Shown: in pieces, positions 24,650 to 49,360 of the stretch
Layout of the letters: each line of letters begins with the position of its first letter
Numbering within the stretch: position 1 is the first letter of the stretch
DNA from: Eisenbergiella porci
GTDB lineage: Bacteria > Bacillota > Clostridia > Lachnospirales > Lachnospiraceae
Direction: 5' to 3'
Length of the DNA: 64,000 bases
Assembly (NCBI RefSeq): GCF_009696275.1
Contig: NZ_VUMI01000023.1
Span: 1-64,000 of the forward strand
The notes under the pieces: generated by a model
Database searches by the model: none
What the model was told of the DNA's origin: nothing
The model's input: only the letters and a program-made list of their open reading frames with translations
Made by a program: the position numbers and the translations under genes

Positions 24650-26329
24650 TTATTGCTGATCATTTTCCTCCTGCTGTTTCATCAAAGTGGCATAACGAAG
24701 GAGTTGTTTCCGGGACGAAACTCCCAGTTTGTTGTAGATATTCTTGTTGTGAAACTTTAATGTATTTTCTGTAACTCCTAAGATCGCAATGATCTCTTTT
24801 GCGTTTTTTCCCTCAAGATACAGATCAAAGACCTTTCTTTCTGTTGGAGTAAGTTGACTAATCCCTTCCAAAAAATATTGAAAATCGTCGGGATCGATCT
24901 CTTGTTTTCTGGAATAGGCAAGTCGGGCAATTTCTGCCTGCGCGGACCCAAGATCACTGCTGGTCTGTTCCAGTTTGCTTTGTAGCCGTTCTTGTCTGCT
25001 CTCAGCTTCCAGTCGCTCCTGGTTCAAAGCGGATAAAGCTGCCTCGTGTTCTCGGTCCTGTTCTGCGAGGAAAGCAAAGAGGTCCTCAATCTCCAAAACA
25101 TGAGACTCGCTCTGCGTCCGGTCTGTGTTAGTTTTAATCTGTTCCAAGTCTTTTATTATGGGTGCAACATATTTTTTGCTGCCCCAAAGAATGGAGGCCA
25201 AAATGGCAAAAGAAGCGATAAACAAGAATGCGGCAATTTTGAGCCGCACCGTCTGCACAAGCGCCTGATATTCTGTGGCAGGGAGCATGGCAGCAACCAT
25301 ATGGGCAGTAGTCCCTATTGTTAGTTCCTGGGTCTTACCAACAAATTCAGTGTCTCCGCTATGGAAGGTAGTCAGGCTTGATCCGTTCTCAACAGAAAAA
25401 GAATTTTCAATTGGTGGGAAATAACCAGATTGATTCCCGGCGATCTGCCCTACATAACAATCCGAATCTTCCGTCAGCAAAGCGCAAAAGATATGTGCTT
25501 GGCTGCTTCCCATCGTCTTATGGGAAAGCGAAAAATACAGACTGCTGATCTCAAAGCCGCACACACCAATCGTGTTGCCACCAGAATCTAAAACAGGTAT
25601 ACAGAGAAAGCGCACACTTTCCCATGTGTCAGGCAGTTTATAAACGGATGTAAGAAAGAAGGCGCCGGAGATGTTCTCGCTTTTGCCGGACATCTCTCCG
25701 TCGATTTCCGGGAATAACCCCTCTTGTGTTTCCAACTGCCATGTACTATGGAGATTGATGTTTTTTTCTCGTGCGACAGTAGAAAATCCACGAAAAAGAC
25801 AAACATCATTATGGATTGTGTTTTCCGCATAAAGATTTGCAAACTTTAGATACAGCCCATTATAGCTTTTATCAGGCAGTGCATCGTTGACCGTTGTTTT
25901 CAAAAAGCAAAATGCTCCGCTGCAAGGTGCAAGTTTCATATTGCTGCTGACGATATCAAAGAGCCTGTTTTGCATGGACTCCAGTGCGTCAGGAGTATTG
26001 CGAAGTTCGTTGAAGGTAATCCCAGCATCTGAAAGTTCGTCTTTGACTGCCGCTGTTATCTGTTGGGAAAAGGCAAGCACATAGGCTGCCTGATCATTGC
26101 TTTGATGCTCTATGGAGTTTACAGAGTTCTCAAGTTGATTGCTTAAAGCCCGCTCAATTTCATATCCAATAGGATCGATTGCACCGAAAAGGAACAATAG
26201 CATAGCAATCAAGAACGCAAAAAAGAGCATTATGGTAAAAAGATAGAACATCAGGCGGCGGCGCATGGAAACGCTCTGCGTCTGAGCCGCCTCCAGTACG
26301 GATCTGATTTCTTTTAGGCGTAGTATCAT
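24650..26329 (-). CDS. Membrane-spanning LuxR-type regulator with extracytoplasmic sensor
   Basis: 559 residues. TM1 at about 27-51 (LMFYLFTIMLFFAFLIAMLL), then about 310 residues that should lie outside the cell (Cache-like appearance, not proven), TM2 at about 364-386 (LKIAAFLFIASFAILASILW), a coiled coil at about 410-480, and a C-terminal LuxR/FixJ helix-turn-helix at about 495-548 (LTPTERKVFDLYLEGKNAKE, then LGVTENTLKFHNKNIYNKLG). Sensor and DNA-binding domain are thus in one chain, with no kinase step. It is the last gene of a minus-strand unit, 18 bp after the solute-binding lipoprotein gene, so the two probably work together, for example with the lipoprotein delivering a ligand. Target genes are unknown. 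Confidence 0.85.
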   Translation of the reverse strand: MILRLKEIRSVLEAAQTQSVSMRRRLMFYLFTIMLFFAFLIAMLLFLFGAIDPIGYEIERALSNQLENSVNSIEHQSNDQAAYVLAFSQQITAAVKDELSDAGITFNELRNTPDALESMQNRLFDIVSSNMKLAPCSGAFCFLKTTVNDALPDKSYNGLYLKFANLYAENTIHNDVCLFRGFSTVAREKNINLHSTWQLETQEGLFPEIDGEMSGKSENISGAFFLTSVYKLPDTWESVRFLCIPVLDSGGNTIGVCGFEISSLYFSLSHKTMGSSQAHIFCALLTEDSDCYVGQIAGNQSGYFPPIENSFSVENGSSLTTFHSGDTEFVGKTQELTIGTTAHMVAAMLPATEYQALVQTVRLKIAAFLFIASFAILASILWGSKKYVAPIIKDLEQIKTNTDRTQSESHVLEIEDLFAFLAEQDREHEAALSALNQERLEAESRQERLQSKLEQTSSDLGSAQAEIARLAYSRKQEIDPDDFQYFLEGISQLTPTERKVFDLYLEGKNAKEIIAILGVTENTLKFHNKNIYNKLGVSSRKQLLRYATLMKQQEENDQQ

Positions 26330-26347
26330 GGTTTTCCCCCTTTTGTG

Positions 26348-27697
26348 TCACCGCTCTACGGCCTCCTGAATTTCCGAAAGCGAAGAGTCAAGGAGTTCTG
26401 ACATCACTGTCTCCGGGTCATCCCCGCGCTCTATGCGGCTGATATAGTCCCGGTGGGCAGCAGACAATATGCTCTTTGCGGTCTCCTCAAACCTGGATTG
26501 CGCTTCGCCGGAAGCGTCATACAGCGGCAAAGGGCAAAAGGAGTAGGAGCCATACATTTGGTCCACCGCACCATAGAGCATATGGGATTTCTCATTCTCA
26601 ATCATATCTATATTTGAAAACAGAGCAGAAAAGGCATTTTCCGTAACCGGCAAATAGCCGGAAGCAATCACAAAGTCCAGATTGTGTTCTTTCTGTGTGA
26701 TCCATTTTCCAAAAATGGCGGCGGCTCTATTTTTTCGCTCGTCCTCACTTTTCATGGAAAACAAACCAGTTCCCCTTTGTATAACCACTGGCGAGGCATC
26801 AGAAAAGGTGGGGTAGGGATATACCGCTGTTTCAATTTCTTCGGTGGTATTGTCCTGGTAGGTTACATAGTCCCTCAGATACAACATCCCTGCTGTGGAA
26901 CCGATATTGCTGATAACCTCGGCTGTTTTCCAGCGGTCGGAAGCATAACCGTCACCAGTACAAAGTCCTCCATGGATCGCCGCACGGGCCATTGGCAGAT
27001 AGGCTTGTTCAAATTCTGCACTGCACAGGTCCGGCTTTCCATTCCGAATGAACTGTCCGCCCAGCCCGGAGACATTGACCAGGAAGTAGTGATAGAAGTC
27101 GTTAATTTGGAACATCTCTGCGCCGCCTGACCAATCGTAGTATTGGCAGCACAGAGCAAAGAGAGATTCAAAATGGAGAAGCTCTTCTTCCGATACTCCT
27201 GTGTCAGCGGCAAAGCGGTCAAATATCGTCTTGTTTAAGAATAACAGTTCTGTTGATTTGGCGATGGGCAGCATAACCAGCCGTCCATCTATAACGCCTT
27301 CTGCCAGAAACTCATCCACATAAGCAGAGCGTTCTTCCTCTGAAAGATAACCACTCCAATCCAAGAGCCGGTCAAGCCCAATCTCTTCCGCCACCCTCGG
27401 ATAGGCCGTGAACAGATCCGGCATGGGAACCGCCCCCGGTTCGTTATTGGCAGAGGCAATCAGCGCATCGTCAATAGCGGTAGAATTTGTGACGGAGACA
27501 ACAGAAATAACAATACCGCTTTCTTTCCCCTTCGTTTGGTTAAACTCATCGATCATTACATTGAGCGGCGATTCTGTCTGACTTCCATAGACGTGCCACA
27601 TCGTCAATGTGATGGGATCGTTTGTAACCTTATTTCCACAGCCGGTCATGCCCACCAGCAGTATGATGGTGAGAAAGAAAATACATAATTTTTTCAT
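26348..27697 (-). CDS. Extracellular solute-binding lipoprotein (family 1-like), no transporter nearby
   Basis: 449 residues, with TAGGAGGAC upstream of the start at 27697. A lipoprotein signal peptide ends MTGC with lipidated C20. The mature part starts as a family 1 substrate-binding protein (ITLTMWHVYGSQTESPLNVM; IDEFNQTKGKESGIVI), with the usual conserved LMLPIAKSTELLFLNK-like region. These proteins normally feed sugar or oligosaccharide ABC importers, but no permease or ATPase gene is in the window. Placed between a receiver-like gene and the membrane LuxR regulator, it more likely serves as a ligand sensor. The ligand cannot be told from sequence by eye. Confidence 0.88.
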   Translation of the reverse strand: MKKLCIFFLTIILLVGMTGCGNKVTNDPITLTMWHVYGSQTESPLNVMIDEFNQTKGKESGIVISVVSVTNSTAIDDALIASANNEPGAVPMPDLFTAYPRVAEEIGLDRLLDWSGYLSEEERSAYVDEFLAEGVIDGRLVMLPIAKSTELLFLNKTIFDRFAADTGVSEEELLHFESLFALCCQYYDWSGGAEMFQINDFYHYFLVNVSGLGGQFIRNGKPDLCSAEFEQAYLPMARAAIHGGLCTGDGYASDRWKTAEVISNIGSTAGMLYLRDYVTYQDNTTEEIETAVYPYPTFSDASPVVIQRGTGLFSMKSEDERKNRAAAIFGKWITQKEHNLDFVIASGYLPVTENAFSALFSNIDMIENEKSHMLYGAVDQMYGSYSFCPLPLYDASGEAQSRFEETAKSILSAAHRDYISRIERGDDPETVMSELLDSSLSEIQEAVER

Positions 27698-27742
27698 TTT
27701 GGTGTCCTCCTATACCCTGCATGGTCCTCACCAGCCTCTGTC

Positions 27743-28126
27743 CTAAAGTGCGTCAATGACAGCGGAGAGATAGCTGGAAGAAACGGAACCGTAAATAAAA
27801 TTGTCTACCAGACCATCCTTCTTGGCCTGCCGCACCCTGTCCGCCAGCTTTTTCTCTGTGTTTTCATCCACCACCAGCACGATCTTGCAATCTGGCTGAG
27901 CCTTTTTCAGAGCGTTTCGGATTTTTAGCCGCTCCTCCAGTGTCCAGGATGTGTATACGGTAACTTCCATAATCAGAACATTTGCAAGCACAGCATCACA
28001 TAGCGACAGAGTTTTGTCCGGGCTCTCGCTCATGACTGGTTCCAGATTGGAATCAAAGTTGCGTAAGGCTTCGGCTACTGCGTCCGCAAACAGGACATTC
28101 TGCATATCAATCACGATTCTTCGCAT
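27743..28126 (-). CDS. Receiver-like protein with Glu at the phospho-acceptor site
   Basis: 127 residues; start at 28126 chosen because TAGGAGGCC lies about 7 bases upstream (the in-frame ATG at 28144 has none). It has the size and strand pattern of a stand-alone receiver: MRRIVIDMQNVLFADAVAEA, then VLIMEV where strand 3 of true receivers ends in Asp; here it is E54. The conserved Lys of strand 5 is not visible (VDNFIYGS). It is therefore a pseudo-receiver, perhaps fixed in an active-like state. It is the first gene of a unit with the solute-binding lipoprotein and the membrane LuxR gene; a terminator at 28231-28265 separates it from the regulator gene upstream. Confidence 0.72.
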   Translation of the reverse strand: MRRIVIDMQNVLFADAVAEALRNFDSNLEPVMSESPDKTLSLCDAVLANVLIMEVTVYTSWTLEERLKIRNALKKAQPDCKIVLVVDENTEKKLADRVRQAKKDGLVDNFIYGSVSSSYLSAVIDAL

Positions 28127-28230
28127 AAGGCGGCCTCCTATCAATCATTTTGAATCCTTTGATGATACCAGTATAGCGAAGAAGCCATTTTCTCGCACTG
28201 TCCCTGAGTACAGTTTTTTGAAGTTTTCTC

Positions 28231-28265
28231 AAAAAAATTTCCCGGCTTCATTGAAACCGGGAAAT
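28231..28265 (-). terminator. Terminator of the kinase-regulator operon
   Basis: On the minus strand arms TTTCCCGG and CCGGGAAA (plus positions about 28257-28264 and 28238-28245) are followed by seven T (28231-28237 read as A on the plus strand). It lies 17 bp beyond the end of the response-regulator gene. Confidence 0.85.
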
Positions 28266-28281
28266 AAAGCTGTGTGCTCTG

Positions 28282-28935
28282 TTATTTGGTTATGTCAAAG
28301 TCCAGATCCTCCGGGAGGCTCGGAATAATAAATTTTTTGCCTGTAACTGCTATGGCAAGGCGGGTCTTGTTGGCATAGCCTGTTTTTTGCAGGATGTTGG
28401 AAACATGATATTTCACGGTCCTCTCTGTGATAGAAAGAGTCTGGGCGATCTCGCTGTATTCCAGACCATCACATACAAGGCGCAGTACCTGGATTTCTTT
28501 TGCAGTCAGATCGGTGCTGCTTACAAGACCTAATTTCACTTGTGGCGTTTCATGGGGAAAGAGATGTTCTCCTGCCATTGTGCGATCAATGACATCGATC
28601 AGGTCTTCGGGACTTAAATCTTTGTACCAAAAGCTGTCTACCTTTGCGGCTTTGGCTCTTTCTAAAAAACCGACCTCGACCATTGATGTGACAACGATGA
28701 TCTTTATGTTTGGGAACGCCACTTTGATCTCGGCGGCAGCTTCGATGCCATCCTTGTTTCCAGCAGTACAGACATCCATCAAGATCAGGTCGATCATCTG
28801 ACGCTTGCAATAGGCAAGTGCAACATCCGCGCCGCTTATACTGGCTGCCAGGGCATATTTTTCACTGTCGGAGATCATTCTCTCCATATATTTGCGGGGC
28901 ATCCGCTGATCCTCTACAATTAACACCTGTTTCAC
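28282..28935 (-). CDS. NarL/FixJ-type response regulator
   Basis: 217 residues from GTG 28935 (AAAGGAGG just upstream; overlaps the kinase stop as GTGA). Receiver domain: VKQVLIVEDQRMPRKYMERM, phospho-acceptor Asp in LILMDVCTAG, and Lys in SFWYKDLSPEDL. C-terminal LuxR helix-turn-helix: LTAKEIQVLRLVCDGLEYSE and LSITERTVKYHVSNILQKTG. The coupled kinase upstream is the obvious partner. Targets could be the divergent cargo promoter region at 31856-32229 (inference). Confidence 0.93.
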   Translation of the reverse strand: MKQVLIVEDQRMPRKYMERMISDSEKYALAASISGADVALAYCKRQMIDLILMDVCTAGNKDGIEAAAEIKVAFPNIKIIVVTSMVEVGFLERAKAAKVDSFWYKDLSPEDLIDVIDRTMAGEHLFPHETPQVKLGLVSSTDLTAKEIQVLRLVCDGLEYSEIAQTLSITERTVKYHVSNILQKTGYANKTRLAIAVTGKKFIIPSLPEDLDFDITK

Positions 28936-30224
28936 TCTGCCGCCTCCTTTTCTACGGGCATGACGATTATCAGCGTAGAGGCTGGTGACCACTGTATTTC
29001 CATCGTACCTCCTAAGTTCGTAACATGGCGGTGAAGGTTGAGTAACCCGCCTCTCGGCACAATGACGCTTTCAGGGGGCTTTCCGTTATTTGTGATACGC
29101 AGGGAAATGTTGTTTCCGTCCTGCCGGGCGGTGACATAAAGGGCCGTTGCATCCGCATGGCGGACGCCGTTGGTGAGACATTCCCGCATGGCGATCACAA
29201 ATATGCGATATATTTCCTCCTGCTTTGGTAATTCGCCAGCCATTTCTACCTTTACGCCGATGGTACTGGCATCCCGCAAAAATTCCGCAAGCTCCCCGCG
29301 CTCCTGGGGGTATTCATTGTCATTTTTAATGGTCCTGATTGCTTTTTGAAACAATAGAAGGCTGTCTGCGGCCTCCTGGGATACCTGCTCTTGCTGCAAA
29401 ATCTGCCGCATAGCAATGATCCCCGCCCCCATCTGGTCATGCAGTTTGGTTTTTGCCGACAGGACTTCCGTTTCCTTTGTCAATGTCAGTACATTATCCG
29501 AAAGAATCTTTAAGTCACGGGAGAATTTTTTGAGCTGCTCAGTCTGTTCCTTGAGTCTCAGTCCCTTTTCGTAAAGTTCAGTCACATCTGAGAAGATCGC
29601 CTCTGTGTAAACTGTGCCGTCTGGTACCGTTATCTCCGTCTGGGAGTAGCGCCAAGCCTTACCATCGGGGAACAGATAGGTTTGCTCTTCATCCGGTAGC
29701 CTTACAACACCGCTTTTCTTATCACACTCTGTAAGTGCCTGCCGCAATTCATCGAAGTGCTGGAGATCGCTTTGCGCCAGTATGTGGAACAAGCGGTGCA
29801 TTTGTAGATTGCACAGTTTGAACTCACCCGATGGGGTGAAATAGCAGATCGCGTTGGGCAACATATCGATTGTCTGCTTCACGGAATTGTGGCTAAGTGT
29901 CCGGCCTTTCCGATGGATCAACACAGCGGTTTGACCAAGGAGCAAAGTACCCACCATGTCAGCGATGCACCACAGCGACCACATTGGAAATGGCAGCAAA
30001 GGATTGATAGGAAGTCCATCGGCCTTTTTGTCAAAGGCATCCCCGGCAATGCACAGCAGGATCAGCAAAGCGATAAATACCCCGGCGTTCAGAAGCCTGC
30101 ACCGTCTGCTCCCACCTCGGTCAGGGGATGCAAGAAAAAGAAACACATCCAATATCAAAGAAAAGAACAGGCAAATCATCCATACGGACTGTTCCATTTC
30201 GGAGGATAAATAGAATGTTGTCAC
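28932..30224 (-). CDS. Sensor histidine kinase, two TM segments, HisKA_3-like
   Basis: 430 residues from GTG 30224 (AGGTGG upstream, GTGA overlap with the previous stop); ATG 30197 is an alternative. Hydrophobic segments at about 15-32 (VWMICLFFSLILDVFLFLAS) and at about 46-63 and 85-105 form the N-terminal membrane part. A PAS-like region follows (AICYFTPSGEFKLCNLQMHR), then a coiled coil. The H box is KTKLHDQMGAGIIAMRQIL, the N box is MRECLTNGVRHADA, and the glycine box is VPRGGLLNLHRHVTNLGG. It should phosphorylate the regulator encoded next to it. It shares an operon with the 7TM pseudo-kinase, so a kinase/pseudo-kinase pair is likely. Confidence 0.9.
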   Translation of the reverse strand: MTTFYLSSEMEQSVWMICLFFSLILDVFLFLASPDRGGSRRCRLLNAGVFIALLILLCIAGDAFDKKADGLPINPLLPFPMWSLWCIADMVGTLLLGQTAVLIHRKGRTLSHNSVKQTIDMLPNAICYFTPSGEFKLCNLQMHRLFHILAQSDLQHFDELRQALTECDKKSGVVRLPDEEQTYLFPDGKAWRYSQTEITVPDGTVYTEAIFSDVTELYEKGLRLKEQTEQLKKFSRDLKILSDNVLTLTKETEVLSAKTKLHDQMGAGIIAMRQILQQEQVSQEAADSLLLFQKAIRTIKNDNEYPQERGELAEFLRDASTIGVKVEMAGELPKQEEIYRIFVIAMRECLTNGVRHADATALYVTARQDGNNISLRITNNGKPPESVIVPRGGLLNLHRHVTNLGGTMEIQWSPASTLIIVMPVEKEAAE

Positions 30225-31855
30225 GTTTGTCCACCTGCCTTTCCGATGCGGAGGATAAAGCGCCATACGCCATCCTCAAAGGAGCAGCTTTCACAGGTAT
30301 CCCGAAAATCTGCAAGGGAGCTTTCGCATTCCACCTCCAGACGGAGGATGATCGAATCTGCAAGAATACGCGCTTTCAACCAAACAAAGCTCATATCATC
30401 TATAGCGGTCTCCATCACCTTCTCAAAAAAGTCGTAGACCAGGATTGTGTCCTGGGTAAAGATTTTGCTGCCCTTCGGAATGTCTGCTTCACATTCGACC
30501 CCCATCAGTTTCAAATTTGAAAAGGATTCCTCCATGCAAAGGGCCAGTTCTGTGGTATCGATGGTTTCCGTTTTTTCACGGATAAAGATCAGGTTGCCTC
30601 TGCGTTTTATGTAAGCGCCGATTACAGTGATCTTCGCAAGCAGACTGCGGCGCTTTTCCGGATTTTCTTCTTCGTCATATAGATAAAACAGGTCATTCAA
30701 TAAATCGATCTGATGAGCGGTTTCTTCCTGTAAAAGGTCATAGAGCCGATTCTTTTCCCGCAAGGTGTGGATCTCCAGCTTGATACGATAATTTTCCTGT
30801 TCCAGATGGTTGCTTTCTGCAATGGTTTCCTTGTTCTCTTCTAACTTTTTGAGCAGTATGGTAATATCTGTTATATCTTCCTGCCAATACACATGACCGC
30901 CTTCGATAGGGTAACTTTTTAGCAGGGTATGTTTATCAAGGTTAACAGCGCCCGCCTCTGCCGTACACATGATCTGTTCAGAAAGCACAGGCGAATTTGC
31001 GGAGGCGTAGCGGACCTTATGGTCGTGATCAGCAATCTGGGCGCCGAAGGTCCCGGCCTTAAACAGCTCATCATAGCCAGTATTGGTCTGAATCAATCCG
31101 CACTGGATACAGCTTTCCAGTATGGCGGTAAACATCAGGCACTGCACCGCTGTAATATCTCCGCCTATCACTTGCATCCACCTGGCTCCGCTGGCGTAGA
31201 TAAAGGCATATAGAATGGAGCAGGACAGCAGAAGCGCCGGTAAGTATTTTCTCCTTTGCGCCAAACGGCATTTGATGAGCATGATCACAAAGGCGGCCAG
31301 CGCACAGATGATCTCCCACCCGATAACAAAATAATATCCGTACTCGTATCCGTTATCCGTATCGCTCCAAACCGTTCCGGTCGGGAAGGAGAAAACAAGC
31401 TGATGGAGATCGTTTGTCAGTACCAGCAGCAGAAAGAACAGGGTGGGAAGATAGAGCAGTCTTGTCCATTTCGGCAGATGGTAGCTTTCCGGCTTACCCA
31501 GCGACATGGAAACAAACACGGAAAGCAGAGGTATGAACAGCATAGGACAATAGTACCAGTACCATAGATGCCGGATCGCATCAGGAGCGACCACAAAAAA
31601 ATATTTTATTGACCGTATAACAAACCAGAAGACGGTCAGACATGAAACGCCGACCATATAGCGGCGCACCTGTGTTTGTAAAATGCGATGGCTGACAGAG
31701 AGACCCCAGCCAATGTACAGACTGATATAAAGGATCGTGCGGACCAAACCCAGCGGTACGGGAAAAACATCAAACTTTCCCAAAACGCGGGCAGAGATAG
31801 CACAGACGATCAGCACAGCTACCAGGACTCCCGTTCTTTGATTCTGCTTAGTCAT
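30221..31855 (-). CDS. 7TM sensor histidine-kinase-like protein, probable pseudo-kinase
   Basis: 544 residues from ATG 31855 (GGGGAGGTG upstream; the ATG at 31882 lies before that site). The first 240 residues have seven hydrophobic segments like the 7TM N-terminal region of histidine kinases (YWYYCPMLFIPLLSVFVSMS is typical). A PAS-like region and a long coiled coil follow (HLEQENYRIKLEIHTLREKN). AHQIDLLNDLFYLYDEE stands where an H box would be, but the last 120 residues lack an N box and glycine boxes, so ATP binding is doubtful. It is the first gene of the operon with the complete kinase and the regulator, so it may act as ligand sensor or allosteric partner. Confidence 0.82.
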   Translation of the reverse strand: MTKQNQRTGVLVAVLIVCAISARVLGKFDVFPVPLGLVRTILYISLYIGWGLSVSHRILQTQVRRYMVGVSCLTVFWFVIRSIKYFFVVAPDAIRHLWYWYYCPMLFIPLLSVFVSMSLGKPESYHLPKWTRLLYLPTLFFLLLVLTNDLHQLVFSFPTGTVWSDTDNGYEYGYYFVIGWEIICALAAFVIMLIKCRLAQRRKYLPALLLSCSILYAFIYASGARWMQVIGGDITAVQCLMFTAILESCIQCGLIQTNTGYDELFKAGTFGAQIADHDHKVRYASANSPVLSEQIMCTAEAGAVNLDKHTLLKSYPIEGGHVYWQEDITDITILLKKLEENKETIAESNHLEQENYRIKLEIHTLREKNRLYDLLQEETAHQIDLLNDLFYLYDEEENPEKRRSLLAKITVIGAYIKRRGNLIFIREKTETIDTTELALCMEESFSNLKLMGVECEADIPKGSKIFTQDTILVYDFFEKVMETAIDDMSFVWLKARILADSIILRLEVECESSLADFRDTCESCSFEDGVWRFILRIGKAGGQT

Positions 31856-32229
31856 GCGTGGACACCTCCCCGCGAAATACAACTCTCATCACCGTATCTT
31901 CCTTGGTATCTCATTTACAGCATTTCCAGTCTTAGCCTTGAAAGAAACCTGATTTTTTGTTTCCCCTACCCATTTTTCGGTTCGGGGTGGCAAGAAAATC
32001 AGATTTTTTCTTTTCAACCCTACCCTTTCGGGGGTTTGGGGTGGGGACAAAAGTGTGGAAATCGCTTAAATTATGGGTGCAGGCAATGCCGAAGGAGGGT
32101 ATGGGCTTTGTCTCCAATGAAAAGCCTCTGACTACGTTGCCAACAAACAGAGGCCGCTCTCCTTTGATTCCTATTATACCATATAACCATGACTTAATCG
32201 AGGGTCAAAGAAAAGAAAGGAGGGATTTG
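31856..32229. promoter_or_regulatory. Divergent intergenic region with a 51-bp-spaced direct repeat
   Basis: This 370-bp stretch holds the promoters of the minus-strand signalling operon and the plus-strand envelope operon. Two similar units start GATTTTTT at 31951 and 32002, each followed by a pyrimidine-rich part with CCTACCC and then CGGGG...GGGGTGG-type sequence ending at about 31990 and 32044. Each unit is also roughly an inverted repeat (CCCTACCC against GGGGTGG). This looks like a double operator or attenuator for a regulator encoded nearby. I see no convincing -35/-10 pair; CTATTATACC at 32171-32180 is a possible -10 for the plus strand. No protein is supported here. Confidence 0.55.
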
Positions 32230-32595
32230 ATGGCGCTTACCCATAAAACAGCACGCTACAAGGTGATCGCCGACTCGGGAGGAAATCGGTACAGCTTCTT
32301 TTGTGACATCACAGGTGCTTTGTTACATACGACCGATCCTATCCAAGCAGAGACACAGGAGCAGGAATTGGAGACCGCATGGGAAGACGCACGGAAATAT
32401 TTTAACCGATGTCACAAGTGCGGCAAATGGGTATCGAATGCCATGTATAACGCTGATGTGGCGGAATGTGTGGAATGTGCGCCGTGGGAAGATCCGCCTC
32501 GTTACTGCTCCCACTGCGGCAAAGAGATTACCTCCGCAGAAATATTTTGTCCACGCTGCGGCAAACGGCTTCAATATGGAGGAGAAGGGTTATAA
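32230..32595 (+). CDS. Double zinc-ribbon protein
   Basis: 121 residues; ATG 32230 follows AAAGGAGGG. The N-terminal half (THKTARYKVIADSGGNRYSF) has no known domain. Two metal sites follow: CHKCGKWV...CVEC and a classic zinc ribbon CSHCGKEI...CPRCGKRL. It is soluble. It is the first gene of the envelope operon and 1 bp from the next zinc-ribbon gene. Its frame also contains a small spacing pattern like DUF proteins of Lachnospiraceae, but I cannot name one. Protein-protein or nucleic-acid binding is likely; the role is unknown. Confidence 0.75.
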   Translation: MALTHKTARYKVIADSGGNRYSFFCDITGALLHTTDPIQAETQEQELETAWEDARKYFNRCHKCGKWVSNAMYNADVAECVECAPWEDPPRYCSHCGKEITSAEIFCPRCGKRLQYGGEGL

Positions 32596-32596
32596 G

Positions 32597-32896: not shown

Positions 32897-32939
32897 TCGT
32901 CAGTAAAGAGAAATAAATCACGAAAGGAAGGATGTAACT

Positions 32940-40740: not shown

Positions 40741-40764
40741 ACAGTTTGATTGAGGAGGTTTGAT

Positions 40765-41295: not shown

Positions 41296-41327
41296 AGAAG
41301 ATAAACCAGTAGGAGGAGAGATAAAAG

Positions 41328-42440: not shown

Positions 42441-42456
42441 ATAAGGGGGATCGGAT

Positions 42457-43794
42457 ATGAAGAAATTTGCGAGTTTTGTGCTGTCGGTGCTACTGGCACT
42501 GACCTTCTGTATCCCGGCTGCGGCAGCGGAAGATTACGGCGTGATCTACGATGAGACAGGGCAGTTAGGGTCGGAACCGCTGCGGTATGCAGGAGAGGTC
42601 ACGCTTCCCGCGCTCACAGAGCGGTATGGTGTTGACCTGCGGGTAGATATTCTGACGGAAAGTGATTATGATACCGTGCTTGACGCAGCGGAAGGTATTT
42701 ACGAAGAGTATGAATATGGCTATGGAAAATACCACTCCGGTATTACGCTGACCCTGCTGCTTACGCCCTGCGAAGACGCCTATACAATGGCCGCGGATGA
42801 CTGGTGTGTCTATCTGGGCGGTACGGATGAAAATCTGCTTTATGGGGATTGGCTTTACGATCTTACCAAGGCAGTGGAGCCTTATTTGTCAGTGGAATCC
42901 GGCATGGAGTCTGGGGCATGGTCCGGCAATATGGATATGAGCGCCGTGGCGCTTTCCCAGGCGGTGGGCGCTATGGCGGAATTCGTGGCGGACTTTTTCG
43001 CACCGGGAGACAGCGGCTATGAAATGACTGGAGGGCCGTCCGGTCAGGATGCGGAGGAACCGGACAGCACCTCGATGTACTATATTTTTGACATCAGCGA
43101 CCTGCTCCCTTTTGACCAGTGGGAGGAACTGGAGCAGTGGGCCGGGGACATTTCCCGGCGGCACGGCTGTGGCGTCTATGTGGTTCTTGTGGACGACTAT
43201 GAGGATTTTGGCTCCGGGGATGTCTATGATGTGACCACACAGATCTATCACTCCGAACAAAACGGCTTCGGAATGGGCGATGGGCGGGATGGCATCATGA
43301 TCCTTCTGAGCATGGCGGAACGTGATTACGCCATGTTTGTCTACGGTAAAAGTGCCGGATACGCCTTTAACGAATACGGACAGGAACAGCTGGAAGAGAG
43401 CTTTTTAGGCGACTTTGGCAATGATGACTGGTATGGCGGCATTTCCCATTACCTGGACTCCTGCGATGAGTATCTTGCCAAAGCGGATGCGGGGCATCCG
43501 GTGCGGGCCAACCCCTTGTGGGGAATTGGATTGATGACGTTTTTGTCCTGTCTGGCGGCGCTGGCGGTCTGCATGGTGCTGAAACGGAAGATGAACAATG
43601 TCCGGCAGAACGCGCAGGCCAACGAATACATTGTTCCTGGCGGGCTGCGCCTAGCAGACAGTTATGACCGCTACACGCACACCACCAAAACCCGTACCAA
43701 GATCGAACAGAAGAGTTCGAGCAGCAGTAGCAGCAGTAGCAGCAGTAGCAGCTGCAGCGGTGGCGGCGGTTCGGGCCGTAGCGGGAAATTCTAA
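42457..43794 (+). CDS. TPM-domain membrane protein (YdjH/YgcG-like)
   Basis: 445 residues. Signal peptide (MKKFASFVLSVLLALTFCIP...AAAA). Two TPM-like regions: about 25-150 (YGVIYDETGQLGSEPLRYAG...) and 205-335 (FDISDLLPFDQWEELEQWAG; DGIMILLSMAERDYAMFVYG). A transmembrane segment at about 355-373 (PLWGIGLMTFLSCLAALAV). The cytoplasmic tail ends in 13 serines, then CSGGGGSGRSGKF, a usual TPM-protein end. TPM domains are extracytoplasmic and in some proteins have phosphatase activity. It pairs with the YdjG-like protein. The serine run is encoded by a 9-bp repeat. Confidence 0.86.
   Translation: MKKFASFVLSVLLALTFCIPAAAAEDYGVIYDETGQLGSEPLRYAGEVTLPALTERYGVDLRVDILTESDYDTVLDAAEGIYEEYEYGYGKYHSGITLTLLLTPCEDAYTMAADDWCVYLGGTDENLLYGDWLYDLTKAVEPYLSVESGMESGAWSGNMDMSAVALSQAVGAMAEFVADFFAPGDSGYEMTGGPSGQDAEEPDSTSMYYIFDISDLLPFDQWEELEQWAGDISRRHGCGVYVVLVDDYEDFGSGDVYDVTTQIYHSEQNGFGMGDGRDGIMILLSMAERDYAMFVYGKSAGYAFNEYGQEQLEESFLGDFGNDDWYGGISHYLDSCDEYLAKADAGHPVRANPLWGIGLMTFLSCLAALAVCMVLKRKMNNVRQNAQANEYIVPGGLRLADSYDRYTHTTKTRTKIEQKSSSSSSSSSSSSSCSGGGGSGRSGKF
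43720..43752 (+). repeat. 9-bp tandem repeat coding for a serine run
   Basis: AGCAGCAGT is repeated about 3.7 times without mismatch, inside the TPM-protein gene. Slippage would change the serine tail by three residues and keep the frame. Confidence 0.85.
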
Positions 43795-43808
43795 GGAGGA
43801 ACAAATTC

Positions 43809-44975
43809 ATGAGGAGAATGATAATGCGGACCGCGTCCGCCCTTCTGGCGTTTCTGCTCCTGTTTGGCCTCGCCGCCTGCGGCAGTAAGTCGCAGGACGG
43901 CACCGGCAGCGGCGATGCAGCGTCCATACCAGCCGATGGAAGTACCGGCAAAGGAGTGCTGGCTGACGGCAGACAGCCGGATAAGGATATGTCTGCTGCA
44001 CCAGACGAGGGAACGGAGCAAGAGGCACTGGCCTGGCTGCGGGAATTTATGGCGGAATACGCACCGCAGGCAGCCATAGCTGCAGCATACCTTGGCTGTA
44101 GGGGGGCGGATGACACCACTTCTCTGACAGAATGGCTGTGGGACAACTCGCCCGGATTGATGGATGAGATGCCTTTTATCCGGACGATCCCGCCCGTGCG
44201 TATTCTGGGTCCCGGCTATGGGGACCTTTACTGCATCGTGCCAAGAGATGACAGGACCACCCTTTCAGTGAATCATGTCACATGGAAATCCACAGGCAAC
44301 GGAGTCTGGCCCGAGCCGGATGAAGTCCTCTACCGGGAAGAGTATGCCCAGCCGGTGCTGGTATTTGTAGGTTATGAGGAATTTCGCGATGAGCCGGATA
44401 TAGAGATCATTGCCAGTGACAGCGGTGGCGCAGGAGGTCTGGTAACATGGTATCCGGTATGGGACGTAGAGGTTGGGGGTGATATGATCGTTCCCACAGG
44501 CGAGGACTATGCCCCCCTGGTCATGGACTTCACCCTCTTTGGCGATATCACGGGTCTGGATTATTGGGGCGATCCGGACAGCTGGGAACCGACAGGGGAT
44601 GACTGGTGGGTGCCGCCCACGGAGGAAGGACTGGCGGATACCTGCTGGGTGTGCGATGGATGGTCTCTGAACCTGCTTGGTGGAGGCGGTGATCCGAACT
44701 GCGCGGGCATTGCCGAACTGTATTGCCAGTTCGAGGATGGGCAGGAATATCAACTGCTCTATTCCGGCGTCTGGCGGATGGTGGATGACTGTCTACAGCT
44801 AATTGTCTCCACGGGAGCAGGAAATCTTCCCAGCGATGCCAGCGGCGTCTTTCCTGTCCTGATTGACCCGTCCGGGGACTACCTGCATATCCAGCAGGAC
44901 AGGGACAACGGAATGCGTCCGCCTTTCTTTGATAATGACATGAGTTCCATGGAGCTGATACGCTCCTATGGATAA
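43809..44975 (+). CDS. Lipoprotein, paralogue of the next gene's product
   Basis: 388 residues; AAGGAGG ends 9 bases before ATG 43809. Lipobox LAAC with C24. The N-terminal domain (EALAWLREFMAEYAPQAAIA; PFIRTIPPVRILGPGYGDLY; YCIVPRDDRTTLSVNHVTW) aligns with the product of 44999-46597 (YPFIKEIPPERW; VYCIVPTDPKASTAVNTWD). A C-terminal lipocalin-like part (DTCWVCDGWSLNLLGGGG) resembles the start of the 46679 protein (NTCWQAVRYIMAKEGQ). Extracytoplasmic, membrane-anchored. The function is unknown. Confidence 0.75.
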   Translation: MRRMIMRTASALLAFLLLFGLAACGSKSQDGTGSGDAASIPADGSTGKGVLADGRQPDKDMSAAPDEGTEQEALAWLREFMAEYAPQAAIAAAYLGCRGADDTTSLTEWLWDNSPGLMDEMPFIRTIPPVRILGPGYGDLYCIVPRDDRTTLSVNHVTWKSTGNGVWPEPDEVLYREEYAQPVLVFVGYEEFRDEPDIEIIASDSGGAGGLVTWYPVWDVEVGGDMIVPTGEDYAPLVMDFTLFGDITGLDYWGDPDSWEPTGDDWWVPPTEEGLADTCWVCDGWSLNLLGGGGDPNCAGIAELYCQFEDGQEYQLLYSGVWRMVDDCLQLIVSTGAGNLPSDASGVFPVLIDPSGDYLHIQQDRDNGMRPPFFDNDMSSMELIRSYG

Positions 44976-44998
44976 ATAAACCGGAAAGGAACAATGGC

Positions 44999-46597
44999 AT
45001 GAAATATAGACGCATATTTGCACTTTTATTCGTTTTGATTCTGTCCCTTACCGCCTGCGGCAGGGAGCAGGTTCCGCCAGGGAACGGCCCCCTGGATCAG
45101 GACAAGAAAATACCCGGTAAAGGAGCTATCAATACCCCCACAGAGGATGGCGGAGCATCCGGTTCCGCCGCCAGTGAAGGGGCAGCCGCCTGGCTTTCTG
45201 TCGAAGGAGGGAAAGTATTGGATGACCTGCGTGAAGGGGCGCAGGCGGACGGCTGTATCTGTTCCGTAGCTTTTTTGGGCGCCGCCCTAGAGCCTGGGGA
45301 AGATATTGCGGCCTTTCTGGCATCAGAGGAGGCGGAGCAATATCTGGATGCGTATCCATTCATCAAGGAGATACCGCCTGAACGGTGGATTGCCCACCCG
45401 GAGGGTGGATATGAGGTCTACTGTATCGTTCCTACAGACCCAAAAGCTTCCACAGCGGTCAATACATGGGACATCAACGAGGACAACGATTTTCTTGGCG
45501 AAAGCGACCAGGTACTCTACCGCAGCGACTGCGGGGATCCTATCCTCCTTTTGGGCAACCTCAGCGATATTATGCCCAGCCTGGATGTGGAGATTGTGGA
45601 CAGTACAGGGAGAAGCCTGAGTTACCAGCCCTCTCTGTGGCTCTACGATGGTTCGCTGTCAGGCCCGTCTGAAATTTTTGATTTTACCATGTATCATAAT
45701 CCTGACCTTATTGGTATATGGTCCGCCGTGATTCCGGCGGAATTAGGAGGCGGTATCTCCCTGAACCTGAATATCGGGCGCGGGGGAAATCTTACCTACA
45801 GCTATGGCCGCGGTAACAGCGAACCGATTGCTCTGTACGAAGGCACCTGGAGCAGGCCGGATGAGGCGATGGTCCAGTTCGGGCCGGAGTGCGTGGTTTT
45901 CGAGCTGTGCCTTGTAGAGGGCATTGAGGATAACGATCTGTGGGGACAATATGGTCCGGGAGAACTCCATGATGAGATATGCGGCGTTTGGATCTGTGAG
46001 CGGGGGGACGGGCCAGGCACATCCTCACTCAGATTGACCCATGTTCAAGGGGATCCTTTTATTGATGGATGTGGAGGATGGGCCATTGTATTTGAGGGCG
46101 AAGACCAGGGCGGAAACAATGGAGGTATGGAACAGGGAGCAAACGTCAACCCTCATGTGCTTACCACAGGAGGACCCGCATTTACCCACATGACTGTCCT
46201 TCAAACGGAAAACTATCCTGATGGGGGCTATTACTATGAGGATATGACACAGGACGGTTCCATATTGATCATAAACTGCGCTTATCCAGGCGGCCGCAGG
46301 AATGGAGTGTCCATGGAAGAATACGCAGTAAAAAGTATCGAGCATCTGACGATGTATGAGGCAGAAGATCTCTCTGTCGAAAAGAACAGCGGCTACAGTG
46401 AGGCATTGGGACACCCCGTCTATATTTTGACGTATACGACAAGTGAAAATGATCACACATTTCACTGGAAAATCTTTATGACGGAGGCGGATGGCTATAC
46501 CTATCTCTATGCCTTTGACGTGTGGCACGAGGTCTACGCAGATATGGAGGATGTCATAGATGATGTTTTCGGACAGCTGTTCTTCCTTGAGATGTAA
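44999..46597 (+). CDS. Large lipoprotein, paralogue of the preceding one plus extra C-terminal domain
   Basis: 532 residues, GGAAAGGA before ATG 44999. Lipobox LTAC with C20. Residues about 60-200 are paralogous to the preceding gene's N-terminal domain (AVAFLG-type helix, PFIKEIPPERW, VYCIVPTDP). A middle beta domain follows, with GGISLNLNIGRGGNLTYSYG and a Gly/Asn-rich linker, then an extra C-terminal domain (about 390-532; FTHMTVLQTENYPDGGYYYE; HTFHWKIFMTEADGYTYLYA) without a known family. It is followed by an 81-bp gap. The role is unknown. Confidence 0.75.
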   Translation: MKYRRIFALLFVLILSLTACGREQVPPGNGPLDQDKKIPGKGAINTPTEDGGASGSAASEGAAAWLSVEGGKVLDDLREGAQADGCICSVAFLGAALEPGEDIAAFLASEEAEQYLDAYPFIKEIPPERWIAHPEGGYEVYCIVPTDPKASTAVNTWDINEDNDFLGESDQVLYRSDCGDPILLLGNLSDIMPSLDVEIVDSTGRSLSYQPSLWLYDGSLSGPSEIFDFTMYHNPDLIGIWSAVIPAELGGGISLNLNIGRGGNLTYSYGRGNSEPIALYEGTWSRPDEAMVQFGPECVVFELCLVEGIEDNDLWGQYGPGELHDEICGVWICERGDGPGTSSLRLTHVQGDPFIDGCGGWAIVFEGEDQGGNNGGMEQGANVNPHVLTTGGPAFTHMTVLQTENYPDGGYYYEDMTQDGSILIINCAYPGGRRNGVSMEEYAVKSIEHLTMYEAEDLSVEKNSGYSEALGHPVYILTYTTSENDHTFHWKIFMTEADGYTYLYAFDVWHEVYADMEDVIDDVFGQLFFLEM

Positions 46598-46678
46598 CCG
46601 CCCGATGTTATACGCACGAACGAAAACATTTGCAACTTAAATGTATAACGAGTGGATGAAAAGACGTGGAGGATAGAT

Positions 46679-47668
46679 ATGAGAAGCAGTAGATTTGCGG
46701 CAGCGTTGCTTTGTCTGCTGTTGCCGCTGGTACTGGCATCGTGTGGGAGAAACGGGAGAAAAATGGGTGAGAACGGCCCATCCAGTGCGCTGCCGCCTAT
46801 CAATAAAGAGAGCAGCACATATTCGGATGCCTTGCCCGAAAACACTTCGGAACCGGAAGATACTGAAGATCCGTGGACGAATACCTGCTGGCAGGCTGTA
46901 CGGTACATAATGGCAAAGGAAGGCCAGACGATGGAAGGGACTTTGCCGGAGGATGATTGGGTTATAGAACTGTACCTGTTGGAGGGCGGCGGTGCCCGGT
47001 ATCGGGAATGGAAGCCCCGGAGCTTTGACTATATCGGTGTGTACCACCTTCTGCTCGGAATCGGCCCGGACTGCTTCTGGTATTCGGATGGCAGCGGTGG
47101 CTTTTTTCTGAGTACGGAAGCTGACGGGACAAACGAAGACACGGTTTTTGCCCAAGGCCATATGGCGGATGGCCAGTTGATGCTGGATTTCTTGGGCGAC
47201 CAGTTCTGGATGGAGCGGCAGCCCATGCCGGCCAAGGGCGGGGAATACTGCATGGCGGACCTGTTCGGCCAATGGCGCATGGTTTCCGGCGAGACTGTCA
47301 CAGAAGGGGATCCGGAGGTCTGGAATTTCACGGCCAGCGAAATGGAGATTGACCGCAGATTGACTTTTCACAGTTCTTGGGACGAGACTGAGCCGGACGG
47401 TGTGGACTATTATGACGAGTGGCATCCCGGTTATCTCAGGGAGGCACAGGCCATGGCGGTGGAATACCAGGAGACCCCAATTTATGAGGGATGCGGGAAC
47501 GAGGCATGGCGTCTCCAGCTGTTCAGCGTTGAGACGATATACCAGAATTACGCAGAAGAAGAATTTTACGTCACAGTATTGGATGCGGATACCCTGCTGC
47601 TTCAAGTGCGTCTCAAAGATACAGACGGAGTCCACACCACCAGTACGCAGATTTTTAGCCGTTTTTGA
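46679..47668 (+). CDS. Lipoprotein sharing a C-terminal domain with the 48180 gene product
   Basis: 329 residues from ATG 46679 (GTGGAGGAT upstream); the in-frame GTG at 46652 would add residues before the signal. Lipobox LASC with C22. The first mature domain (NTCWQAVRYIMAKEGQTMEG) is lipocalin-like. The second (MADLFGQWRMVSGETVTEGD; GCGNEAWRLQLFSVETIYQ; VTVLDADTLLLQVRLKDTDG) aligns with the last domain of the lipoprotein at 48180. Exported and membrane-anchored. Unknown ligand. Confidence 0.75.
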   Translation: MRSSRFAAALLCLLLPLVLASCGRNGRKMGENGPSSALPPINKESSTYSDALPENTSEPEDTEDPWTNTCWQAVRYIMAKEGQTMEGTLPEDDWVIELYLLEGGGARYREWKPRSFDYIGVYHLLLGIGPDCFWYSDGSGGFFLSTEADGTNEDTVFAQGHMADGQLMLDFLGDQFWMERQPMPAKGGEYCMADLFGQWRMVSGETVTEGDPEVWNFTASEMEIDRRLTFHSSWDETEPDGVDYYDEWHPGYLREAQAMAVEYQETPIYEGCGNEAWRLQLFSVETIYQNYAEEEFYVTVLDADTLLLQVRLKDTDGVHTTSTQIFSRF

Positions 47669-47686
47669 AAGAAAGGAGACAGAAAA

Positions 47687-48175
47687 ATGCCAGTCACATT
47701 AAACATGATCCCCGCTACTTTGCAGGAATTCCAAACGTGTCCGCAGATGGATCTTTCCAAGCCGGAAAACACCTGCGCCATGTTCCTGTGTGCATTACAG
47801 CTATACATAAAGGACAGGGATGCCGGGGTGAAGGCAATGAATATGCTGCGGGGTCCCAGACCCATGACTCCCTACGACAGCCAGTTTCTCCGGGACCGCC
47901 TGCGGGATAAGCCTTATCTGCCCCTGGCCTACTTTGAGGGAGCGGCGCCTAAAAACAACTATACCCCGGCACAGCCCTATGTACTGAATGTGCTTCCGGA
48001 TCCACGTCCCCAGGACATAGAAGCCGGGTATATCCGGGTATTCCTGAAAACAGCGGGGGCGGATTCTCCCAGGCCGGTCAAGCTCCGGCAAAAGGGCAGC
48101 CTGTGGTATCTCTGGGAGTATTCCAGCATCCTCAGCGGGATACGGTCCCTCGCGGAATGCGATCCTTGGGGGTGA
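47687..48175 (+). CDS. DUF6935-like cytoplasmic protein
   Basis: 162 residues, GAAAGGAGA before ATG 47687, no signal peptide or membrane segment. It contains KAMNMLRGPRPMTPYDSQFL, GYIRVFLKTAGADSPRPVKL and SLWYLWEYSSILSGIR, which I recall as DUF6935, a domain of unknown function in Firmicute proteins found next to lipoprotein and SPFH-type genes. It is the only cytoplasmic product between the paralogous lipoproteins, and its gene lies 4 bp before the last lipoprotein gene. The domain name is from memory. Confidence 0.65.
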   Translation: MPVTLNMIPATLQEFQTCPQMDLSKPENTCAMFLCALQLYIKDRDAGVKAMNMLRGPRPMTPYDSQFLRDRLRDKPYLPLAYFEGAAPKNNYTPAQPYVLNVLPDPRPQDIEAGYIRVFLKTAGADSPRPVKLRQKGSLWYLWEYSSILSGIRSLAECDPWG

Positions 48176-48179
48176 GAAT

Positions 48180-49103
48180 ATGAAACAATGCTGGATAGGC
48201 ATCCTGCTGGCGCTTCTCCTGATTTTTAGTCTGACTGCCTGCAAAGATGCAAATAATGCCGCACAGCCGCTTCCAACAGCCGGAAGCGGCGGGAAGCTGC
48301 CGGAAATATCCAAGACGGAGACGGGTGATATGAACCGAGACAGTTCCGAAAGCAGTGCGGTTCCGGATGGTAAGCCAGATATGATTCCTCCATCTGACAA
48401 GGAAGCTGCCGCAGTTTCCGTTAGTGGTTCGGGCGCGGAGTATCCGGCCTCCGAGCAGGCATTTGAGCGTCTGCGGGAAACCGAGATTGTCCGGTATTAC
48501 CTCGAACTTGGCATGGTTATGCTGGACACAGGGCTTCAGGAGACTGTCAACGGGCAGAACTGCCGGATCATCTCCCTGGGTACTGACCATGAAACTCATT
48601 TTGTGCAGGAAATTTACTACGCTGTCAGCTGCGACACAATCTATACCTATGACCAGATCAACGATGAATGGCTGGAGTTGGGTAGTGAGCCTTCCATTCC
48701 GGGCGCGGAATTTGCCATGTCCGATCTGGAGGGCAGCTGGCAGATGGTCGAGGGAGAAGTCGAGGGGTGGCGGTACAGTGCGGCGGATGAGGGCATTGTC
48801 TCGACGCTGTGCTTTACCCGCATCTACGACAGCAATATTCCAACCACGGATCTCACTGCGGATTTTGACAGAATGGATGAAAATGGAAACGAGGCGCATG
48901 AGCGGAATATGGAGGTCAAATTCTTGGATGAACTGTTGTACTACGGCTGTCCCAACGAGGCCTGGTCTGTTCAGCTACTATGTGAGGAGGAAGGGGTCTC
49001 GTATTTCGTTGCCATCACCGATCCTGATACGCTGGAATTATACTTCTCTTTTGAAAAGAACGGCAATTCAGGGGCTTCTCTTGCTTACTACAGGCGGATA
49101 TGA
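48180..49103 (+). CDS. Lipoprotein, last of the series
   Basis: 307 residues; ATG 48180 is 4 bases after the previous stop, with GGGGGTGAG as a plausible ribosome site. Lipobox LTAC with C21. A Ser/Pro-rich stalk is followed by a helical segment (AFERLRETEIVRYYLELGMV) and a C-terminal domain (MSDLEGSWQMVEGEVEGWRY; GCPNEAWSVQLLCEEEGVSY; AITDPDTLELYFSFEKNGNS) paralogous to that of the 46679 protein. Exported. No enzyme motif. Confidence 0.75.
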   Translation: MKQCWIGILLALLLIFSLTACKDANNAAQPLPTAGSGGKLPEISKTETGDMNRDSSESSAVPDGKPDMIPPSDKEAAAVSVSGSGAEYPASEQAFERLRETEIVRYYLELGMVMLDTGLQETVNGQNCRIISLGTDHETHFVQEIYYAVSCDTIYTYDQINDEWLELGSEPSIPGAEFAMSDLEGSWQMVEGEVEGWRYSAADEGIVSTLCFTRIYDSNIPTTDLTADFDRMDENGNEAHERNMEVKFLDELLYYGCPNEAWSVQLLCEEEGVSYFVAITDPDTLELYFSFEKNGNSGASLAYYRRI

Positions 49104-49183
49104 GACCGCCCTGATGTCTAAAAAATTGGGATGGCAGCAAAAAAACATATCGAAAGCATTCCTATGAATAGGCGGTGTTGTCC

Positions 49184-49360
49184 ATGAAAGAGCAGGAACA
49201 ACAAAGCTCCCATTGGGTGCATTGTCCAATCTGCGGGGCTAAAACAAAAACCAAGGTAAATGAGGATACGATCCTTATCAGATTTCCTCTTTATTGTCCG
49301 CAGTGCAAAAAAGAATTTCGTGTTGATATTGTACAATTGAAAATGGTTATGAGCAAATGA
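49184..49360 (+). CDS. Cysteine-rich KTR-type small zinc-ribbon protein
   Basis: 58 residues from ATG 49184. HCPICGAKTKTKVNEDTILI followed by YCPQCKKEFRVDI is the pattern of the cysteine-rich KTR family, common as a short cargo or border gene in Clostridia conjugative elements. Four cysteines probably bind one zinc. It is soluble. A terminator follows. The function is unknown. Confidence 0.8.
   Translation: MKEQEQQSSHWVHCPICGAKTKTKVNEDTILIRFPLYCPQCKKEFRVDIVQLKMVMSK

Follow-up and report, generated by a model that had tools for sequence, protein, structure and literature searches.

The window, as the whole stretch of DNA analysed here is called, comprises positions 1 to 64,000 of contig NZ_VUMI01000023.1 from Eisenbergiella porci, whose genome is 6.1 Mb long. 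It includes an integrative and conjugative element (ICE) which carries, between its relaxase and its helix-turn-helix (HTH)/MazF region, a cargo unit of about 24.7 kb. As judged from its sequence, this cargo is probably a self-contained system for envelope protection: a mobile envelope module of the Ydj type, devoid of PspA, under the control of a sensor of its own. Related sets, predicted to combine sensing with membrane protection, recur in other gut Clostridia.

The minus strand of the cargo encodes a seven-transmembrane (7TM) receptor, a histidine kinase (HK), a NarL-type response regulator (RR), a stand-alone pseudo-receiver (psREC), a solute-binding lipoprotein (SBP) and a membrane LuxR protein (mLuxR), which form the sensor half. 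The divergent plus strand encodes the effectors, among them an SPFH protein with C-terminal zinc ribbons, a YdjG-like protein and a TPM-domain protein, here called the trio, along with DUF4428 and DUF6935 proteins and eight lipoproteins (Table 1). The six sensing or regulatory genes, as well as the named plus-strand genes, are all present where a preliminary description of the window, made from its letters, had placed them.

Association of sensor and effector genes in other genomes

Linkage of the two halves was evaluated in sets of loci, each led by a different protein. For the 7TM-led set, 397 genomes of the family were searched and a match was found in 58, including that of the window; out of 71 places besides the window, 47 hits, on 45 stretches, were scored for neighbours within 15 kb. 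HK is present in 46 of the 47, RR in 43 and psREC in 11. Among the effectors, SPFH is found in 13, YdjG in 14, TPM in 9, DUF4428 in 9 and DUF6935 in 2: a trio gene is present in 15 loci, any of these five families in 19. SPFH proteins of this kind occur about once per genome or less (87 out of 145 genomes, at a loose threshold), so that about 1% of the loci would be expected to feature one near 7TM, against the 13 out of 47 observed. This number was obtained with a score limit; a looser count gives 14, and the binomial probability (P = 3e-16) is computed from the latter, with an assumed frequency of 1.2%.

The psREC-led set derives from 104 relatives in a species-genome collection, coming from Clostridia of several families; 80 were kept, many of them on stretches that end at contig ends. 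In these 80 loci tblastn detects RR in 68, HK in 61, 7TM in 57, SPFH in 30, YdjG in 24, DUF4428 in 21, TPM in 20, DUF6935 in 19, SBP in 13 and mLuxR in 12. When clusters of open reading frames (ORFs) are added, 37 loci contain a trio gene and 53 at least one effector from a wider list; where 6 kb or more are available behind psREC (50 loci), the corresponding numbers are 25 and 39. The 7TM-led and psREC-led sets overlap (G214/L257, G221/L210, G355/L190, G448/L196, G412/L207, G073/L224). ICE-type genes are found in 12 of the 80 stretches: G214 features both halves beside ICE genes, while elsewhere both halves occur with no ICE gene matched in the fetched stretch. The halves are therefore found together in other genomes, in and apart from an ICE context, and the objection, named beforehand in the preliminary description, that they might never co-occur does not hold.

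Seen from the effectors, the association is rare: among 40 SPFH-led stretches, YdjG is present in 18 and TPM in 9, and 7TM, HK and RR in just two (G055, G037). The link is thus one-sided, above chance from the sensor and rare from the effectors. The trio is accordingly at home in many settings, and the sensor serves several outputs. Among viral contigs, 63 pattern matches to psREC gave no confirmed case; no plasmid with 7TM was found, and YdjG is present in 12 plasmid records, each below 60% identity.

The usual gene order is 7TM, HK, RR, psREC, optionally followed by SBP, mLuxR and a zinc-ribbon gene, and then by the effectors, usually SPFH, DUF4428 or a gene with four transmembrane (TM) segments, YdjG, TPM, DUF6935 and lipoproteins. 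RR and psREC lie on the same strand, with at most one ORF between them, in 64 of the 68 loci with both. Trio genes and psREC are read from the same strand in 30 loci and from opposite strands in three (L183, L185, L187), which are near copies of the window; L199 is likewise divergent, as seen by tblastn. The divergent layout is therefore the exception, and the usual one, co-directional in 30 out of 33, argues more strongly for shared control. For 84 psREC genes the following gene was determined: it is SPFH in 6 (at 22–209 nt) and YdjG in 3 (at -4 to 44 nt). Secreted InlB-B, choline-binding, dockerin or SLH proteins are found directly behind psREC in L188, L193, L201, L202, L232 and L233. Four loci of the same kind (L210, L211, L227 and G257; cluster 27) encode proteins which are presumably AIM24-like.

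A conserved promoter in front of psREC

The gap between RR and psREC contains an 18-nt dyad, whose right arm ends 20–22 nt upstream of a TATAAT-like -10 box, in 35 out of 43 cases; in 200 rounds of dinucleotide shuffling, the combination is found on average in 2.7 gaps and at most in 8. The gap set was reduced from 54 (53 plus the window) to 48 of at least 100 nt, then to 44 and, without L183, to 43. The first dereplication was loose: the window and L187, as well as L188 and L202, all stayed. Because near relatives were left in the set, the test was repeated at three stricter thresholds, where dyad and -10 box are present in 30 out of 38, 27 out of 34 and 22 out of 26 gaps (shuffle maxima 8, 6 and 6). 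The spacing had been picked from the output of an earlier dyad test without fixed spacing, in which 42 of 44 gaps are positive at 5 of 7 (24.8 expected) and 26 of 44 at 6 of 7 (5.8 expected). With its centre near -42, the dyad is suggestive of an activator site standing in for the -35 box. A terminator-like hairpin is also present in 32 of the 43 gaps.

The dyad is spelled in different ways (CTGTACTnAGGGACAG, TTTACCCTTATGGGTAGG, GTACCCATTTGGGGAAT, ACTATTACTTGTGATAGT, GTCCTCACTTYTGAGGAC), which go with different recognition helices of the regulators; regulators sharing one spelling are related, so that these matches are not independent events, and the regulator classes were set by simple patterns, L238 being misplaced. 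A scan of 35 loci, allowing up to 4 mismatches, revealed no further copy between genes; three loci (L187, L205, L238) have one match inside a gene. These 35 loci are not exactly the 35 positive gaps, since L198 and L226 (4 of 7) are included and L223 and the window excluded. The genome of the window features one perfect copy, all other sites having three mismatches, at the level of controls: the regulator thus seems to serve the psREC operon alone there. A second promoter was sought downstream of mLuxR: repeats there beat all 12 shuffles in L190, L228 and L261, three of the seven relatives compared, and not in the window; the repeat pair of L190 may be a hairpin. The conserved dyad provides a ready reporter for finding the signal.

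Residue states of the sensor proteins

The His and Asn sites of HK are kept in 43 of 43 kinases, and the phospho-Asp of RR, with the other receiver residues, appears in the conservation line of 79 regulators. By the kinase catalytic sites and the regulator phospho-Asp, the pair is a two-component system, predicted to be active. Models of UhpB, LiaS and NarX give weak scores with HK: the 30.6 bits obtained for LiaS, against a cut-off of 450, do not assign it to that type.

The 7TM protein matches HK when hidden Markov models are compared (E 2.5e-7, probability 93), over the membrane part, a part that we read as PAS-like and the coiled coil. The match ends where HK reads K..HD; the window 7TM protein reads EKNRLYD there, with Tyr at the place of His, and Pfam finds no ATPase domain in it. 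On these residues the 7TM protein of the window is a degenerate kinase, as perhaps not all of its relatives are. Where receivers carry the phospho-Asp, psREC has Glu in 82 of 84 sequences and Asp in two. The Glu pseudo-receiver can serve as a marker protein, by which some hundred sensor loci of differing output are found. PDB relatives of mLuxR, searched by sequence, cover only its C-terminal HTH part.

Edges of the cargo and the surrounding ICE

Parts of the cargo unit are present, at 93–99.6% identity, amid other surroundings. At the left edge, L184 (Bacterium 1XD21-13) is 99.6% identical starting from 24,480 and L187 (a Roseburia metagenome genome) 93% identical starting from 24,470; at the right edge, L267 (from the genome of L185, an uncultured Firmicutes) is 99.5% identical up to 49,520 and L268 (from the genome of L187) 97% identical up to 49,168. 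DNA identity to three other genomes thus ends at nearly the same edges, which indicates that the cargo behaves as one movable unit; the boundaries of the preliminary description, 24,650 and 49,360, are close to them. Outside the edges the neighbours differ: an ORF read as an ICE HTH protein in L184, a methylase-like ORF in L187, matched at 95% by window positions 8220–8421, and an ORF read as a sortase in L267.

The left edge (24460–24530) is rich in hairpins (GTTCGGGAACCGAAC, CCAGCCCCGGCTACGGGGCTG), and the genes that it adjoins vary from record to record; no recombinase could be recognised within the cargo unit. The left cargo part of Bacterium 1XD21-13 (L184 1–4058) lies at a contig start. 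The right half finds short matches only in that genome, which may therefore hold the left part alone.

Around the cargo, genes for a relaxase, NikA/MobC, a topoisomerase, a C5-methylase, NlpC/P60 and three serine recombinases were identified, in agreement with its earlier placement as ICE cargo between the relaxase and the MazF-like region. Clostridium porci is at least 99.9% identical to the window at 17,746–38,126 (L183) and 42,300–60,142 (L266), and the window flank 61,500–64,000 has no match in its genome: the same element thus occupies another chromosomal site there, from which we infer that it has moved, and recently. Relaxase, mobilisation protein and recombinase, together with this second site, identify the element as an ICE. 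It extends to about 60,142, with its end near 60,121–60,142. The end coincides with the start of a recombinase-like ORF (60107–61399), shorter than its kin (region 60107–61526) and matched at 95% by G000:C81. This gene may be where the ICE inserted. The GC content is about 57–65% in the ICE, 47–49% in the minus-strand genes and 50–58% in the plus-strand genes: the lower GC noted in the preliminary description is real, and clearest for the minus block.

Proposed mechanism and alternative explanations

The 7TM receptor, with its degenerate kinase-like half, and its partner HK would jointly sense an envelope or extracellular cue; HK, whose residues are intact, would phosphorylate RR, which, as suggested by conservation of the site, would bind the single dyad and turn on the operon starting with psREC. 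Two wirings may be envisaged. In some relatives SPFH or YdjG directly follows psREC, and the psREC promoter would then serve the trio as well. In the window, as in loci similar to it, psREC shares its operon with SBP and the membrane-tethered mLuxR; here a second promoter might drive the zinc-ribbon/SPFH/YdjG/TPM/lipoprotein block, with mLuxR turning it on once SBP holds its ligand. psREC, in which the usual phospho-Asp is missing, might provide feedback by tuning the kinase or the regulator. By homology with Bacillus subtilis, YdjG and TPM would keep the SPFH scaffold at the membrane, here without PspA and together with lipoproteins outside. A stricter version, offered tentatively and in itself doubtful, is a two-tier AND gate across the membrane: 7TM would license HK and RR, which would make the second sensor (SBP and mLuxR), and only the firing of both would yield a PspA-independent SPFH/YdjG/TPM scaffold. 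If true, a solute-binding protein would serve as co-receptor of a transcription factor.

The histories of the modules were followed by comparing pairwise distances between gene pairs, with five near copies (L183–L187) excluded. Distances correlate inside the sensor set (r 0.77–0.80, n 53–65), inside the trio (r 0.69, n 25; r 0.71, n 24) and between SBP and mLuxR (r 0.93, n 10). Correlations are also found between RR and mLuxR (r 0.59) and between DUF6935 and RR (r 0.45) or psREC (r 0.40). These values point to modules that associate repeatedly and are also swapped.

Several results weigh against a dedicated link between this sensor and an envelope module. In 28 of the 47 7TM-led loci, the 15-kb neighbourhood is devoid of all five effector families, and 38 of the 40 SPFH-led stretches have no sensor. 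Distances of the sensor set correlate only moderately with those of SPFH or YdjG (r 0.25–0.54, n 23–30; P 0.0005–0.0035, below 0.004 in six of seven tests, and 0.057 for psREC–YdjG); the values are r 0.39 (P 0.059) for psREC and mLuxR, and r 0.03 (n 6, P 0.42) for mLuxR and SPFH. Before the plus-strand block of the window the regulator dyad was looked for and not found, and repeats upstream of the block are no better than shuffles. With a site before psREC and none found before the block, control of the latter in the window would be indirect, or exerted via another factor. The shared control deduced in the preliminary description from the divergent layout is backed in the relatives, by genes running in one direction and by a promoter with what is probably a site for the regulator; the window's own layout is exceptional, and no dyad was found in front of its plus block. 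At the His place the 7TM family (n = 65) has Tyr in 43 sequences and His in 8, the remaining 14 carrying other residues; Tyr is thus not universal, and some of the relatives may be live kinases. Finally, when the gene that comes after psREC does not belong to a window family (35 cases), its product is in 22 cases a protein of at least 400 aa with a signal-like N-terminus.

These last proteins would fit a surface-protein regulon, in which lipoproteins or large secreted proteins are displayed under control of the relay, and the trio, rather than protecting from outside attack, provides quality control of their export. Nine next-gene proteins were scanned: six contain InlB-B, choline-binding, dockerin or SLH domains, two match no family and one has only zinc ribbons. 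A large secreted protein and SPFH are present in the same locus in G407 and L205, and the eight lipoproteins of the window block agree with such a role. The nine loci where SPFH or YdjG directly follows psREC, and the absence of a giant secreted protein from the window, speak against it, and this explanation is regarded as rather unlikely. The sensor itself might act more generally, as a switch for the surface or the envelope. An anti-phage island, with a membrane module turned on by phage entry, is improbable. ICE carriage is counted in its favour, as are a passage of PMC11153139 and the occurrence of DUF4428 as N-terminal domain of some SNIPE nuclease homologues (PMC13190303). Yet a PADLOC scan of 10 proteins (the zinc-ribbon genes and seven of the eight lipoproteins were left out) assigned no family to the nine non-LuxR ones, and gave for mLuxR two weak matches to CARF models, in its HTH part; nor is a clear nuclease or toxin domain present among the Pfam matches of the block, except the DHH phosphoesterase, for which nucleotides are possible substrates. 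Phage defence, among the functions first considered, thus finds no backing in the seven effector-side proteins scanned. The least credible explanation is that the halves are mere co-residents of a hot spot for accessory genes, with no functional link. Each module does occur alone, as the loci lacking the other half testify, but the excess of SPFH near 7TM, the co-directional order and the promoter in front all argue against it. An envelope-protection system with its own sensor is the reading that we prefer.

Genes of the cargo unit

ORFs were obtained with a simple longest-ORF caller; their positions are reported in Table 1, with the other features of the cargo.

Table 1. Features of the cargo unit (positions in the window; ZnR, zinc ribbon)
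Feature	Position	Strand	Remarks
Cargo unit as a whole	24470..49170	.	right edge between 49,168 and 49,520; DNA identity to L184/L187 (left) and L267/L268 (right) ends there
mLuxR: TM, outer region of ~300 aa, TM, linker, LuxR HTH	24650..26329	-	GerE E 3e-14; hydrophobic segments 24-58, 356-385
SBP, solute-binding lipoprotein, partner gene of mLuxR	26348..27697	-	SBP_bac_8, lipobox
psREC, stand-alone pseudo-receiver	27743..28126	-	no Pfam match; Glu at phospho-Asp place
Candidate response-regulator dyad ACTGTACTCAGGGACAGTG	28196..28214	-	21 nt before -10 TATACT; sole perfect match in genome
Terminator-like hairpin and T run 3' of RR gene	28237..28265	-	
RR, NarL-type response regulator	28282..28932	-	Response_reg (REC) and GerE; start inferred
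HK, 3-TM histidine kinase	28932..30266	-	HATPase_c E 0.0015, 19.4 bits, under Pfam cut-off 26.4
7TM receptor, degenerate kinase-like paralogue of HK	30221..31882	-	HisKA_7TM; no HATPase_c
Two CCCTACCC-N12-GGGGTGG elements, upstream of plus-strand block	31964..32044	+	one copy in L199
ZnR1, zinc-ribbon protein	32191..32595	+	weak match to gene behind mLuxR in other loci, E ~1e-5 in very small databases
DZR, double zinc ribbon protein	32591..32896	+	
SPFH (Band_7_1) with C-terminal zinc ribbons, YdjI-like	32940..34355	+	Band_7_1 E 1.4e-17, over cut-off; cysteine motifs read in sequence
TM135, four-TM protein	34455..34862	+	
DUF4428 protein	34909..35808	+	C-terminal zinc ribbon read in sequence
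Lipoprotein, DUF5640	35833..36180	+	
Lipoprotein, DUF5067	36202..38070	+	
Lipoprotein lp199	38214..38813	+	C-terminal zinc ribbon
Lipoprotein lp293	38810..39691	+	lipobox reads LFGC
DHH-DHHA1 phosphoesterase	39763..40740	+	no match in 80 psREC loci
2-TM and zinc ribbon protein	40750..41295	+	
YdjG-like: N-terminal zinc ribbons, C-terminal TM	41328..42440	+	
TPM-domain protein, YdjH-like	42457..43794	+	TPM_phosphatase E 8e-17
Lipoprotein lp388	43809..44975	+	
Lipoprotein lp532	44999..46597	+	
Lipoprotein lp338	46652..47668	+	
DUF6935	47687..48175	+	E 6e-53; in 19/80 psREC loci
Lipoprotein lp307	48180..49103	+	

A strict lipobox is matched by seven of the eight plus-strand lipoproteins, lp293 being the eighth. 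The zinc ribbon of lp199 is of the SPFH kind, and a predicted lipoprotein is an odd place for such a cytoplasmic-looking domain. A second SPFH gene of the host, 65% identical to that of the window, lies at G000:C128:8370-9698; in the 20-kb stretch around it the other block genes are unmatched, except for the zinc ribbon shared with lp199. Comparison of DUF6935 with PDB by sequence gave nothing credible.

Comparison with known systems

No paper describing the combination of this sensor with these effectors was recognised in the open literature searched, which included few subscription papers and no preprints; in the same literature DUF6935 is not mentioned and DUF4428 appears in two papers. The preliminary description, which knew of no system with this combination, needs amending: the effector half has a precedent in the pspA-ydjGHI operon of B. 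subtilis, and also occurs alone.

That operon is under sigma-W control. SPFH with zinc ribbons, YdjG and TPM are its trio, which, according to PMC8581546 and PMC11237479, helps to place PspA at the membrane. Like the operon, the cargo features in one cluster an SPFH protein with a C-terminal zinc ribbon (as YdjI), a zinc-ribbon YdjG-like protein with a TM segment and a TPM-domain YdjH. YdjG is defined by zinc ribbons, an NTF2-like domain and a TM segment; its counterpart in the window is tentatively assigned by architecture, from its zinc ribbons and C-terminal TM segment, and relatives have it beside SPFH and TPM. Unlike the operon, the cargo has an adjoining multi-part sensor, additional lipoproteins, DUF4428, DUF6935 and ICE carriage, and PspA was not found: PspA_IM30 has no match in the genome of the window, the block included. 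Controls of this search were positive in 9 out of 14, B. subtilis and Escherichia coli among these; PspA_IM30 scores over its cut-off in 2 of 18 chosen genomes with the 7TM sensor, most of which have trio genes beside it. The trio here thus stands without the partner that it helps to place in B. subtilis. Proteins known there as helpers in placing PspA are carried, with sensing of their own, on a moving ICE, and such a trio, joined to a sensor and without PspA, lets one ask what it does by itself.

The same three genes, SPFH, YdjG and TPM in a row, are found on plasmid pK205-4a-A of Enterococcus gallinarum, with a YdjG 31% identical. Unlike in the cargo, no sensor, lipoprotein or PspA gene is annotated within 6 kb of them, so that independence from PspA alone is not special to the locus of the window.

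Signalling of the LiaFSR/UhpABC kind combines a membrane partner, a kinase and a NarL-type regulator. The sensor half resembles it in having a membrane partner, HK and a NarL-type RR, with weak scores of HK to the UhpB and LiaS models. It differs in that HK remains far under the cut-offs of those models, the partner is a kinase-like 7TM protein, and psREC and SBP–LuxR genes are added.

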